A DNA stretch of 64,000 nt from Agrobacterium vitis (GTDB lineage Bacteria > Pseudomonadota > Alphaproteobacteria > Rhizobiales > Rhizobiaceae), in the NCBI RefSeq assembly GCF_037039395.1, contig NZ_CP146242.1:434001-498000 (forward strand), given 5' to 3'. The notes under the pieces are model-generated. The model did not search any database and was not told where the DNA came from. It worked only from the letters and a program-made list of their open reading frames with translations. This document shows, piece by piece, positions 36,260-39,585 of this stretch. Both the position numbers and the translations under genes were made by a program. Positions within the stretch are counted from its first letter, which is position 1. The number at the start of each line of letters is the position of its first letter.

Positions 36260-36303
36260 GCTTGGGATTGAGCGAGTAGCGGCTTGAATGACGCACTCGC
36301 TTA

Positions 36304-36449
36304 CACTGTAATGTCTTATACGAAGGGTCATTTTCAATGACACTTCGTATTCCGTTTTCGAATATCTCAAGCCCTTCATGCATTTGAGATATTCGAAATC
36401 TCTTCAAAGCGAGGATGCGTCAGCATCTTCGAGCTTTGGTATTACAGTG
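36304..36449. repeat. Family 2 intergenic repeat, copy 2 (full-length)
   Basis: This 146-bp element is bounded by perfect 9-bp inverted ends (cactgtaat at 36304, attacagtg at 36441). Its centre is a palindrome: gaatatctcaag...ttgagatattc. The stretch aggatgcgtcagcatcttcg links it to the other copies. It lies in the 338-bp gap between mgtE and the toxin gene. Confidence 0.85.
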
Positions 36450-36597
36450 GACATGGCTCTGTTGCGATTGAACGGAACATGAGTTCGATTGGTCAACATT
36501 GGGTCTCCTGCAACCTTATGGCTTATCCCTTGCCGGGGTTGCAAAATTCCACGGAAAATGAAACCTTCCCGACAATGGAATGTTTGGGAGGTTATCC

Positions 36598-37467
36598 ATG
36601 CCAACAGAAAATGAAAGCAATGCTCCGATAGACGGGGGATTGGTTATCGCAGTATCTGCCGTTCAGTTGGCGGCGGTCCTTGAAGGGGAAACGGTCGAAC
36701 AAGGCGGAACGCTGGGCAACAGGGTCATAGGCGGATTACGCTTGCTCGGCTGCGCTGCGGAAGGCCTGACGGCCGGAGCACTTCTTGCCACACCAGAACC
36801 GACAATGTTGACCAAGGTCGGTGGAGGAGCTTTAGCGCTTCATGCCGCAGATCAATGCACCACAGGCGGACGGCAATTATGGACGGGGCAAAACGAACGC
36901 TCCTGGACGGAGAAAGGCACGTCGTCCCTCGCGAAATCTCTTGGTGCATCGCCCCAGGCAGCAGACAACATCGGCATGGCGATGGACTTTGTGGTGCCAA
37001 TCGGTGGGGCTGCAATGGCTGGCGCAGTTCGCGCAGCCGCCATCAGATCCGGCCGTATCTCTTTGATGCAGCATGAAGCGCAGGCGGGAAGCCGCCTTGG
37101 CGGCCATACGATAGAGAGGCATATTGCCAAGGATGAAGCATTCCTACGCCAACGGATTGCACAAACAGCAACCAATCGCGCGCCCCCTCCCGTTATCTCG
37201 TCCTTCAGCAGTCTGCGCATCGCTGAAGATCAAATTTCCAGAGCATTGAGGTTGAACCAAGCACGGATCATGCAATGGTCACAGAATGCCGCCATTGGCT
37301 CCAAGCTGGAACCACCCATTGTGTTCGATGCAGGACGGGTGATCGGACAAGGTGTCGTCCGAGCATCAGGGCAAGTTCAACAAATGACGAGGCTCCGGAT
37401 TATTTTAAAGAAAGAGACTTATAATGGCATGACCCATTATATTCTCACCTCCTATCCCGTTCCGTAA
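36598..37467 (+). CDS. RNase A-like (CdiA-CT type) polymorphic toxin
   Basis: This is a 289-aa protein. The C-terminal ~120 residues match the bacterial RNase A-like CdiA C-terminal toxin domain: GGHTIERHI (168-176), SSFSSLRIAEDQISRALRLNQARIMQW (201-227), VIGQGV and the ending THYILTSYP (279-287). Conserved His170/His175 and Thr284/Tyr286 are plausible catalytic residues; characterised relatives degrade RNA in target cells. The N-terminal 150 residues are Gly/Ala-rich with hydrophobic, glycine-zipper-like stretches and match no delivery domain I know. Start is the ATG at 36598, preceded by ggagg. Followed after 15 bp by its likely immunity gene. No cdiB, VgrG, PAAR or T6SS gene is in the window. 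GC is lower than in the neighbours. Confidence 0.82.
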   Translation: MPTENESNAPIDGGLVIAVSAVQLAAVLEGETVEQGGTLGNRVIGGLRLLGCAAEGLTAGALLATPEPTMLTKVGGGALALHAADQCTTGGRQLWTGQNERSWTEKGTSSLAKSLGASPQAADNIGMAMDFVVPIGGAAMAGAVRAAAIRSGRISLMQHEAQAGSRLGGHTIERHIAKDEAFLRQRIAQTATNRAPPPVISSFSSLRIAEDQISRALRLNQARIMQWSQNAAIGSKLEPPIVFDAGRVIGQGVVRASGQVQQMTRLRIILKKETYNGMTHYILTSYPVP

Positions 37468-37482
37468 GAGTAACGATTGACC

Positions 37483-37812
37483 ATGCCAACAATGACTGAC
37501 GATTTCGACGCACTTTCAGGCCTGATTGGCAGCTATCTTCATCAGGATATGGATTTGGAATATCAAAGCGTACCCGAAGCGATTGCTGGCTATGCCCGAT
37601 TGACCGAGGACACCAGAAAGCAACAATTAGTGCAAGAAATGCACGAGTTCTTGCACCGTTACCACAATGACATCGAAGGCGAATTTTCCAAACGCTACTG
37701 GTTTGATTTTTCACCCCAGACACTGGGCCAGACAGTTCCCGAATTCTTTGATATGGTGCGCGACATCCTCACCGACCCCGATAGCTATCACCGATTCCTG
37801 CCGACGAACTGA
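37483..37812 (+). CDS. CDI-type immunity protein (CdiI family)
   Basis: This 109-aa acidic protein matches the contact-dependent-inhibition immunity family (CdiI_2-like): LSGLIGSYLHQDMDLEYQSVPEAIAGY near the N-terminus, then a helical middle and RYWFDFSPQTLG. It should bind the upstream RNase A-like toxin in the cytoplasm and protect the producing cell. It starts 15 bp after the toxin stop and has the same AT-richer composition. Start choice between the ATGs at 37483 and 37492 is uncertain; a TTG at 37477 is unlikely. It is convergent with cfa with only 12 bp between. Confidence 0.83.
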   Translation: MPTMTDDFDALSGLIGSYLHQDMDLEYQSVPEAIAGYARLTEDTRKQQLVQEMHEFLHRYHNDIEGEFSKRYWFDFSPQTLGQTVPEFFDMVRDILTDPDSYHRFLPTN

Positions 37813-37824
37813 TCGTCGTGCGCC

Positions 37825-39126
37825 TTATACGGCGGCGACATGCTTTTCGTGATCGGTCAGAATATAATCCCGCGTCAGTGGCAGGACGTTGTTTTTCTTG
37901 GCTATCTGGATCTGAAAGACGACAAGATCCTCGTGATAGAAGGCGGCTTCGGCGGTGGAGAGATAATAGTCCCACATCCGGCAGAAGCGTTCATCGTAGA
38001 GGGCGGCTGCGTCTGCCCATCGGGCGGTGAAGCGGTCGTGCCAGTGGCGCAAGGTTTTGGCATAATGGATGCGCAACACCTCGACATCAGTGATCGTCAG
38101 GCCAGCCTTTTCAATTTCAGGAACGATCTCGGACAGTGCCGGAATATAGCCGCCGGGGAAGATATATTTGTCGAGCCATGGCGTGGTGAAGCCCGGCGTT
38201 GCGGAACAGCCGATTGTGTGCAGCACCATCACGCCATCATTGGCCAGCAGTGTGCTGCATTTGCTGAAAAACGTCCTGTAAGCCGCAAGACCGACATGCT
38301 CGAACATGCCGACCGAGACGATACGGTCGAATGTGCCTTCCAGACTGCGATAATCCATCAGCCGGAAATCGACATTGGCCGCCTCAGTCTCAGGCTTGCG
38401 GGGCCGCTTGAGCGCATAGGCTAGCTGCTCTTCTGACAAGGTGACGCCCAGCACCTCTCCGCCGACAGCCCTATCGGCCAGATGAAGCGCGAGACCGCCC
38501 CAGCCGCAGCCGATATCCAGCACACGGTTTCCCGGCTTGAGGCGCAGCTTGGCGGCAAGATGGTCTTTCTTGGCGCGCTGGGCGTCGTCCAGGCTCTGAT
38601 CGTCACGCTCGAAATAGGCGCAGGAATACTGCCGATCTTCATCCAGAAACAGTTCGTAAAGCCGTGCATCCAGATCGTAATGGTGCGCGACATTCTGCTT
38701 GGATCTGGCGGGAAGATTGCGGTGGCGAAAGATCCTGAACCGGGTCCTTACATCGTCGATAATCCGGGCGATCAGCGGATGGGTGGCATTTTGCGCCTCC
38801 CGTAGCACCATGGAAACGAAATCGAACATGGTTCCCTGATCAACGAAGAACCGCTCATCCATATAGAGATCGCCCAGCCGCATATCGGCATCGATCAGAA
38901 ACGCCCATTGCGCGCGCGTATCAGCGAAGCGAACGGTGACAGGCTCACCCGTACGGTCACCAAATGACAGCGTCTTGCCGCTGGCTGTCACAATATCCAG
39001 ACAACCGATGGTGACGATGCGCGACAGTGCCGAGGCCAGGGCCCAATCCGAAATAGTGTTAAAAATGGATCTTGGTGGTTGTTTCAAGCGGTCTGCATTT
39101 CCGGGATGCAATGCCATGATCTTCAA
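37825..39126 (-). CDS. cfa: Cyclopropane-fatty-acyl-phospholipid synthase
   Basis: The enzyme transfers a methylene from S-adenosylmethionine to unsaturated acyl chains of membrane lipids, hardening them against acid and stationary-phase stress. The 433-aa protein has the N-terminal lipid-binding region (LASALSRIVTIGCLDIV) and the class I methyltransferase domain (VAHHYDLDARLYELFLDEDRQYSCAYF, SAM motif LDIGCGWGGLA, RIVSVGMFEHVG). Late motifs are FPGGYIPALSEI and CRMWDYYLSTAEAAFYHEDLVVFQIQ. The start could be the ATG at 39126 or 39117. A family 1 repeat lies upstream. Confidence 0.95.
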   Translation of the reverse strand: MKIMALHPGNADRLKQPPRSIFNTISDWALASALSRIVTIGCLDIVTASGKTLSFGDRTGEPVTVRFADTRAQWAFLIDADMRLGDLYMDERFFVDQGTMFDFVSMVLREAQNATHPLIARIIDDVRTRFRIFRHRNLPARSKQNVAHHYDLDARLYELFLDEDRQYSCAYFERDDQSLDDAQRAKKDHLAAKLRLKPGNRVLDIGCGWGGLALHLADRAVGGEVLGVTLSEEQLAYALKRPRKPETEAANVDFRLMDYRSLEGTFDRIVSVGMFEHVGLAAYRTFFSKCSTLLANDGVMVLHTIGCSATPGFTTPWLDKYIFPGGYIPALSEIVPEIEKAGLTITDVEVLRIHYAKTLRHWHDRFTARWADAAALYDERFCRMWDYYLSTAEAAFYHEDLVVFQIQIAKKNNVLPLTRDYILTDHEKHVAAV

Positions 39127-39585
39127 CAGCCTCTGGAGTGGAACTGAGAAAAGGGGTCCGGCGATACGGCTGCATGATACCTTCCTTAAAGTCAGTCAGG
39201 TTCAGACTGAACCACACTGACCCCAAGATCTGTTTGTTTCGTTTGTCTTTTCGGAAAAATCGGTTTCCACTTTTCTCTGACAAACTATAGAACGCCTTGA
39301 TTTAAGTAGGATATCACCCAGCAAATTCGAAGTTCTACCGCAGCTTATGCGGTTGACGAAGCGAACGAGGCTAAAACGAAAGTCTCGGAGTTTGACATCG
39401 TCTCAGCACCAGCCCAGCAGATCCCAATCAACCGGCTAATCATGGTGTAAAAAAGGATCATGCAAAAAATAGGAAGAGCCAGGCGCATGAGGACCTATAA
39501 CACCCAAAAAAGGACGACCCTCATAGGTTGAATTTTTATTACACAATACCTAGAATTGAGTCCATCTATTTTAGAAAGGCTCAAT
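39127..39585. other. 459-bp divergent intergenic region cfa / tyrosinase
   Basis: It holds a family 1 repeat (39191-39290) and, after that, AT-rich sequence that probably contains the tyrosinase promoter. No gene is supported. Confidence 0.45.
39191..39290. repeat. Family 1 intergenic repeat, copy 3
   Basis: The internal palindrome gtcaggttcagactgaacc and the block gtttgtttcgtttgtctttt, then tttctctgacaaactat, match the elements at 2418-2549 and 50191-50288. The terminal inverted gtcaaagcgccg ends are absent. It lies just upstream of cfa. Confidence 0.75.

Follow-up and report, generated by a model that had tools for sequence, protein, structure and literature searches.

A probable T6SS cargo effector family behind an orphan RNase A-like toxin and its CdiI_2-type immunity gene in Agrobacterium vitis

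A toxin gene and an adjacent immunity gene in the window (the whole 64,000-nucleotide stretch of Agrobacterium vitis DNA analysed here) probably constitute an orphan T6SS cargo effector pair, with a predicted RNase as the toxin and a predicted cytoplasmic immunity protein as its partner. A sequence-only reading of this DNA had found no way for the toxin to leave the cell and had offered two, cargo of a distant T6SS or a new delivery domain. The first is well supported by the gene order in relatives and by a T6SS gene cluster on another contig of the same genome. What had appeared to be an undeliverable toxin would then belong to a probable T6SS cargo effector family ranging from Rhizobiaceae to Burkholderia, Variovorax and Pantoea. 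The features concerned are:

36598..37467, + strand: toxin (effector) gene, an ORF of 289 aa (30.3 kDa) with a DUF4225-related N-terminal region and an RNase A-like C-terminal domain
36706..37002, + strand: DUF4225-like helical region, toxin residues 37–135 (hhalign, AlphaFold2 model)
37102..37458, + strand: RNase A-like (CdiA-CT) domain, toxin residues 169–287
37483..37812, + strand: CdiI_2-type immunity gene, 109 aa (PF18593; AlphaFold2 model all-helical)
36262..37852, no strand: segment absent at the same mgtE-CFA synthase junction in the same-genus genome G012 (locus comparison)
36315..36442, no strand: dispersed repeat adjoining the pair (own-genome search), a feature of the genome and not of the effector

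The toxin, its immunity protein and their relatives

The toxin gene has GGGAGG six bases 5' of its ATG at 36598; an alternative in-frame ATG at 36580 would give a protein of 295 aa. The 289-aa product had been read as ending in an RNase A-like CdiA-CT domain, and the profile search bears this out: PF18431 matches residues 169–287 over its full length (profile positions 1–113; E = 1.5e-25; 90.6 bits against a curated cut-off of 27) and is the one Pfam domain in the protein. Also in keeping with the first reading, no CdiA filament, PAAR, VgrG or LXG/WXG family was matched in it by Pfam at E ≤ 1. The sole NCBIfam match was to an RNase A lipoprotein model, at 28 bits and below the cut-off of 200. 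The toxin model resembles the CdiA-CT chain of the solved complex 5E3E, and all four active-site residues are kept: H175, R186, T284 and Y286 align in sequence with the active site of 5e3e_B, given for Y. kristensenii CdiA-CT as His175, Arg186, Thr276 and Tyr278 (PMC9086364). By profile and alignment, the toxin is a member of the bacterial RNase A-like (PF18431) family, with RNase activity predicted.

The second gene starts 15 bp downstream of the first, and its product, which had been taken for a CdiI_2-like protein, matches PF18593 (CdiI_2) well above the curated cut-off (E = 4.2e-17; 63.1 against 26.7 bits). When its AlphaFold2 model was searched with Foldseek, the CdiI of 5e3e ranked first (probability 1.00, TM 0.71/0.81, rmsd 2.0, E 0.57); the two proteins share 15% identity, and no sequence match of the immunity protein to this CdiI was found. 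No signal peptide was seen in it by eye. The partner gene is assigned to the CdiI_2-type immunity proteins on its profile match, and protection of kin is predicted.

A whole-protein search, which scored just the 7999 candidates with the most shared words, returned at least 88 proteins, 87 of them with PF18431, whose named source organisms include Rhizobiaceae, Phyllobacterium, Aureimonas, Burkholderia, Paraburkholderia, Pantoea, Erwinia, Pseudomonas and others. The full protein, N-terminus included, is conserved across the alpha-, beta- and gammaproteobacteria. A scan of genome contigs yielded 195 relatives, the best 80 of which were kept and represent 79 loci; the closest, L003 and L004, are titled Agrobacterium vitis and are 98–99% identical. 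Four of the 79 loci, in which no one open frame spanned both landmarks used, were set aside; a CdiI_2-like ORF directly 3' of the toxin was found in 67 of the other 75, in some cases in arrays (profile built from hits; ORF start between −30 and +400 bases relative to the toxin stop; one toxin copy per locus).

Several further arrangements were observed among the relatives. 1) The Paraburkholderia loci L056, L063 and L025 contain four to eight CdiI_2-type immunity genes each, and L056 has three toxin copies too. 2) One Paraburkholderia genome (G072) gave 9 family matches, pieces counted. 3) In four Rhizobiaceae genomes (L133–L136; for L133 and L136 Pfam confirmed the RNase domain) the RNase A domain is joined to another N-terminus, which includes a stretch like 'DPNQPR.P.G...GGQWTD'; the one at L136:2142-2825 (genome G378) adjoins a phage portal gene, which hints at a carrier of phage or GTA type. 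4) In the same-genus genome G002, an RNase A-like match lies within a 544-aa open frame (C22:9530-9799; L083, L128).

As both domains, toxin and immunity, correspond to those in the CDI pair 5E3E, and orphan CdiA-CT/CdiI cassettes are known (PMC9086364), the pair might be the debris or the reservoir of a CDI system minus its filament. The toxin is not at the end of a large CdiA filament, as a member of a CdiBAI system would be. It has its own start and ribosome site, the conservation described above extends to its N-terminus, and relatives are embedded in T6SS clusters (see below), all of which makes this origin very improbable. Two genes with a small soluble partner could also represent an intracellular toxin-antitoxin or phage-defence pair that is not exported. 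This reading is hard to credit in view of the conserved N-terminus, the hcp-vgrG location in relatives and the extra immunity gene arrays, as in polymorphic toxins.

Relation of the N-terminal region to DUF4225

The N-terminal part of the toxin had been described as Gly/Ala-rich, glycine-zipper-like and of no known delivery class. The composition is as stated, but the zipper is not: the region has 2 GxxxG motifs where shuffling gives 3.4 on average, and 1 zipper pattern where it gives 2.7, i.e. no enrichment over composition of the kind by which a Tde1-type translocation domain is recognized. Hydropathy is moderate, with no strong transmembrane segment detected by this measure. In the AlphaFold2 model, residues 38–63 and 70–96 form two long helices separated by a PEPT turn at 66–69, and PEPT is invariant in the aligned rows (25 of 25 and 28 of 28).

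As to the delivery class, the region was found to be related to DUF4225 (PF13988), by the following observations. 1) PF13988 matches 4 of 24 aligned family members in Pfam at E ≤ 1 (best E = 7.5e-6), and an unrelated phage holin family likewise gave matches to 4 of the 24 in that scan, weakly (best E = 0.0033); neither the window protein nor its N-terminus alone gave a PF13988 match at E ≤ 1. 2) In hhalign, the alignment of the N-terminal family against that of DUF4225 scored 40.8 over 98 columns (probability 80.8%, E = 1.3e-5), a score reached by none of 100 column shuffles (≤ 20.8) and far above that of the reversed alignment (15.3). 3) The relative P0093 carries PF13988 in its precomputed annotation. 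4) A model of the N-terminal region run over 398 genomes of the phylum found one further protein (E = 4e-6), and all 120 of its relatives, among the matches listed, have PF13988. At the family (superfamily) level, these comparisons place the N-terminus as a divergent DUF4225 relative and not a new class; for the window protein itself the putative link is weak.

The N-terminal region occurs once in the A. vitis genome (G000). With the N-terminus alone as the query, 41 of 45 matches (limited to proteins of about 159–505 aa) carry PF18431, and the region is thus not confined to non-toxin proteins. It was found as well in P0098, a protein called RHS repeat-associated by its source and having no Pfam match, and behind RHS repeats in an SpvB/TcaC-type protein.

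In Vibrio, a DUF4225 protein encoded right after hcp is described as an antibacterial T6SS effector that lyses E. coli and whose toxicity is seen in the periplasm but not in the cytoplasm; three TM helices are predicted for its immunity protein, and DUF4225 is reported to occur with PAAR, VgrG, Hcp, Rhs, SpvB and other polymorphic toxins (PMC9765294). Since the N-terminus is related to a domain already tied in print to T6SS and polymorphic toxins, Rhs and SpvB among them, the suggestion of a new delivery domain is not supported.

Two roles can be considered for this region. Because the immunity protein is of the soluble CdiI_2 type, the poison would most simply be a cytoplasmic RNase and the helical region its way in; we give this membrane-entry step an even chance. 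Alternatively, the protein may be a bifunctional T6SS effector, in which the DUF4225-like N-terminus is an envelope toxin acting from the periplasm and the RNase a second toxin, with no translocation role for the former; this departs from the preferred explanation solely in the role of the N-terminus. Both the kinship to DUF4225, by Pfam on members and hhalign, and the lysis of E. coli from the periplasm by a DUF4225 protein (PMC9765294) are in its favour, but the immunity gene here encodes a soluble CdiI_2 and not a protein like the three-TM one predicted for DUF4225 in that report, and we consider bifunctionality unlikely. If entry is the role, this DUF4225 branch might be an inner-membrane entry module for T6SS cargo that works without glycine zipper, PAAR or adaptor and shuttles between T6SS, Rhs and SpvB-type toxins, a proposal that we make only tentatively and hold to be somewhat doubtful.

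T6SS genes around the relatives and in the carrier genomes

T6SS linkage was examined by tblastn with T6SS proteins of Neorhizobium huautlense in up to 10 kb on each side of each locus. The queries matched 8 of the 79 loci, two of which (L017 and L040) had ClpV-like matches alone, probably housekeeping Clp. Six loci (L007, L009, L010, L011, L012, and L019) are embedded in T6SS genes, as are the copy in a plasmid record of R. tumorigenes and a broken copy in G229; no T6SS gene was found in up to 10 kb per side of the other 73 with these alphaproteobacterial queries, which distant VgrG/PAAR may escape. In N. huautlense (L007) the order is clpV, hcp, toxin, CdiI_2, vgrG, DUF2169 and Tox-PAAR-like, confirmed by Pfam from hcp on (L095, the same stretch). 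The R. tumorigenes plasmid is annotated tssE, tagJ, tssC, tssC, tssB, tssA, tssH, hcp, hypothetical, toxin, immunity and vgrG, with PAAR and DUF2169 further along. Hcp is upstream of the toxin in L007, L009, L010, L011 and L012 and unmatched in L019, and VgrG is downstream in L007, L009, L011 and R. tumorigenes and unmatched in L010, L012 and L019. Apart from L007, the hosts in which hcp precedes the toxin in these loci include Aureimonas, R. deserti, a Paracoccus MAG and a second N. huautlense. The G229 copy (L094:3659-4552) is frame-broken and lies near hcp and clpV, with the RNase part and the immunity domain in one frame.

In a midpoint-rooted tree of 77 proteins, the window copy belongs to a starred set of 12 rows that includes five T6SS-embedded copies; the sixth embedded copy (Paracoccus) is just outside this set, and, A. 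vitis aside, the window copy has the orphans L005, L006 and L008 as its nearest rows. At the window site no T6SS linkage was seen, the scanned neighbours being MgtE, a cyclopropane synthase-like protein and tyrosinase. A look elsewhere in the same genome (6.04 Mb, 5 contigs), as the first reading had advised, located a T6SS cluster on contig C4: two TssC (C4:130856-133192) surrounded by TssM, TssL, TssK, an FHA protein, TssG, TssF, TssB and TssA (Pfam), together with Hcp (85% identity to the N. huautlense protein) and TagJ by tblastn, and ClpV, seen just as an ORF. Three clear VgrG are on C2 and C3, all of them away from the window; one more match is weak. In the C4 cluster, hcp is followed by a 168-aa ORF without a Pfam match (L093:7773-8279), possibly an effector slot.

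Among 297 Rhizobiaceae, the family model finds matches in 8 at E 1e-10. Four are full-length carriers (G000, G125, G247 and, frame-broken, G229), and all four have TssC, as compared with 69 of the 297 overall (Fisher one-sided p = 0.003, kinship not corrected). The other four (G112, G210, G217, and G378) have the RNase part alone, without this N-terminus, and TssC was found in one of them (G378); its absence from G217 is weak evidence because that genome is just 68% complete. In the Burkholderiaceae, 88 of 150 have TssC, including 6 of 7 carriers of the full-length protein against 82 of 143 others (p = 0.14); the carrier without a TssC match is G885 (completeness not given), and an eighth match, G813, is to the RNase part alone. 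Given these figures, the association of toxin and TssC is clear in the Rhizobiaceae and merely compatible in the Burkholderiaceae. Of the carrier genomes reached through the contig loci, 48 of 49 have TssC, the miss being an Acidobacteriaceae MAG (G092, completeness not given); this sample comes from 54 loci picked from the 79, with four MAG loci and one more left out, and overlaps some of the Rhizobiaceae genomes. In one effector carrier, Phyllobacterium sp. 628 (G065 C2:591621-592536), one TssC copy is interrupted.

Genomes with orphan copies might export the toxin by something other than a T6SS, such as an Rhs or a phage-like carrier. Most copies are distant from T6SS genes, G092 and G885 lack a TssC match, the N-terminal region is shared with P0098 and the SpvB/TcaC-type protein, and in G378 the RNase domain is on another N-terminus beside the phage portal gene. 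Against such a carrier stand the 48 of 49 genomes with TssC and the five T6SS-embedded copies in the set of 12 with the window copy, and we regard it as quite improbable. The position of related cassettes inside T6SS gene clusters suggests instead that the toxin would likely exit by a known T6SS and not by a new route.

According to the T6SS reading, the toxin would be loaded by the T6SS of its own genome, encoded on C4, probably in or on the Hcp tube or on VgrG and without a dedicated adaptor, and would be fired into a neighbouring bacterium. The DUF4225-related N-terminus would then engage the target inner membrane from the periplasm and the RNase A-like domain could reach the cytoplasm, where it may cleave RNA; in kin, cytoplasmic CdiI_2 would block the RNase. 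In A. vitis the cassette lies alone in a probably acquired segment of ~1.6 kb, away from the T6SS cluster.

The pair is probably a T6SS cargo effector with its immunity protein, familiar in kind but found in an unusual place, and it can be compared with four systems. 1) It is like Y. kristensenii CdiA-CT/CdiI (5E3E) in its RNase A-like fold, four active-site residues and, by model, immunity fold, but the domain in that CDI toxin has a different setting from the one here, which follows a 168-residue N-terminal part with the DUF4225-like region, and the immunity proteins have little identity (given above). 2) With the DUF4225 T6SS effector of Vibrio parahaemolyticus it shares a related helical region, an immunity gene next to the toxin and, in several relatives, the position directly after hcp, whereas the DUF4225 part is the toxin there, with a predicted three-TM immunity protein, and here precedes an RNase with a soluble partner (PMC9765294). 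3) If the entry step is right, it would resemble Agrobacterium tumefaciens Tde1/Tdi1, a T6SS nuclease that relies on its N-terminal part for entry of the toxin into the target cell, although Tde1 has glycine zippers and an Ntox15 DNase (PMC10240207), and the A. vitis protein an RNase A domain and no zipper enrichment. 4) Re78/Re79 of Rhizobium etli Mim1, a pair of another family reported to be T6SS-dependent, likewise occupies the hcp-vgrG slot of a rhizobial T6SS, but Re79 is periplasmic with a signal peptide and Re78 is reported to lack any of the described toxin domains (PMC10215855).

Members of this family are mostly distant from T6SS genes, and surveys starting at T6SS clusters would tend to miss them. 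They also pose the question of how T6SS nucleases cross the target inner membrane, as in Vibrio the related region is toxic in the periplasm, and here it precedes a cytoplasmic-type RNase.

Origin of the pair at this site

In the same-genus genome G012, mgtE and the CFA synthase gene are 44 bp apart, compared with about 1.59 kb in the window, with flanks 92–94% identical. At the same junction, G015 carries a DDE transposase along with a 306-aa ORF that gave no Pfam match, G011 has 0.9 kb of other sequence, and in A. vitis CG118 (L003) mgtE and the CFA synthase gene flank the pair. Within the genus, the mgtE-CFA synthase junction is a site of variable insertions, and acquisition of the pair, as a segment of about 1.6 kb, is supported. 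The sequence-only reading had inferred acquisition as well, from an AT-rich composition and a neighbouring mobile-type repeat; the empty site in G012 upholds that conclusion, and the repeat does not. The compositional difference is mild and partial: the G+C content of the pair is 53.6%, the mean of the 1.2-kb stretches of the window being 57.4% and 10.5% of them being lower, and it is the RNase part (50.7%) and the immunity gene (48.8%) that are AT-richer, not the N-terminal half of the toxin (59.1%). The repeat (~130 bp) is present as described, but it is an ordinary dispersed one with 57 matches in its own genome, among which are short fragments of a single copy, and many others across the genus; because the genome holds dozens of copies, it says nothing special of the pair. 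A second dispersed repeat, at about 39184-39290 (about 105 bp), is seen in several relatives in the genus.
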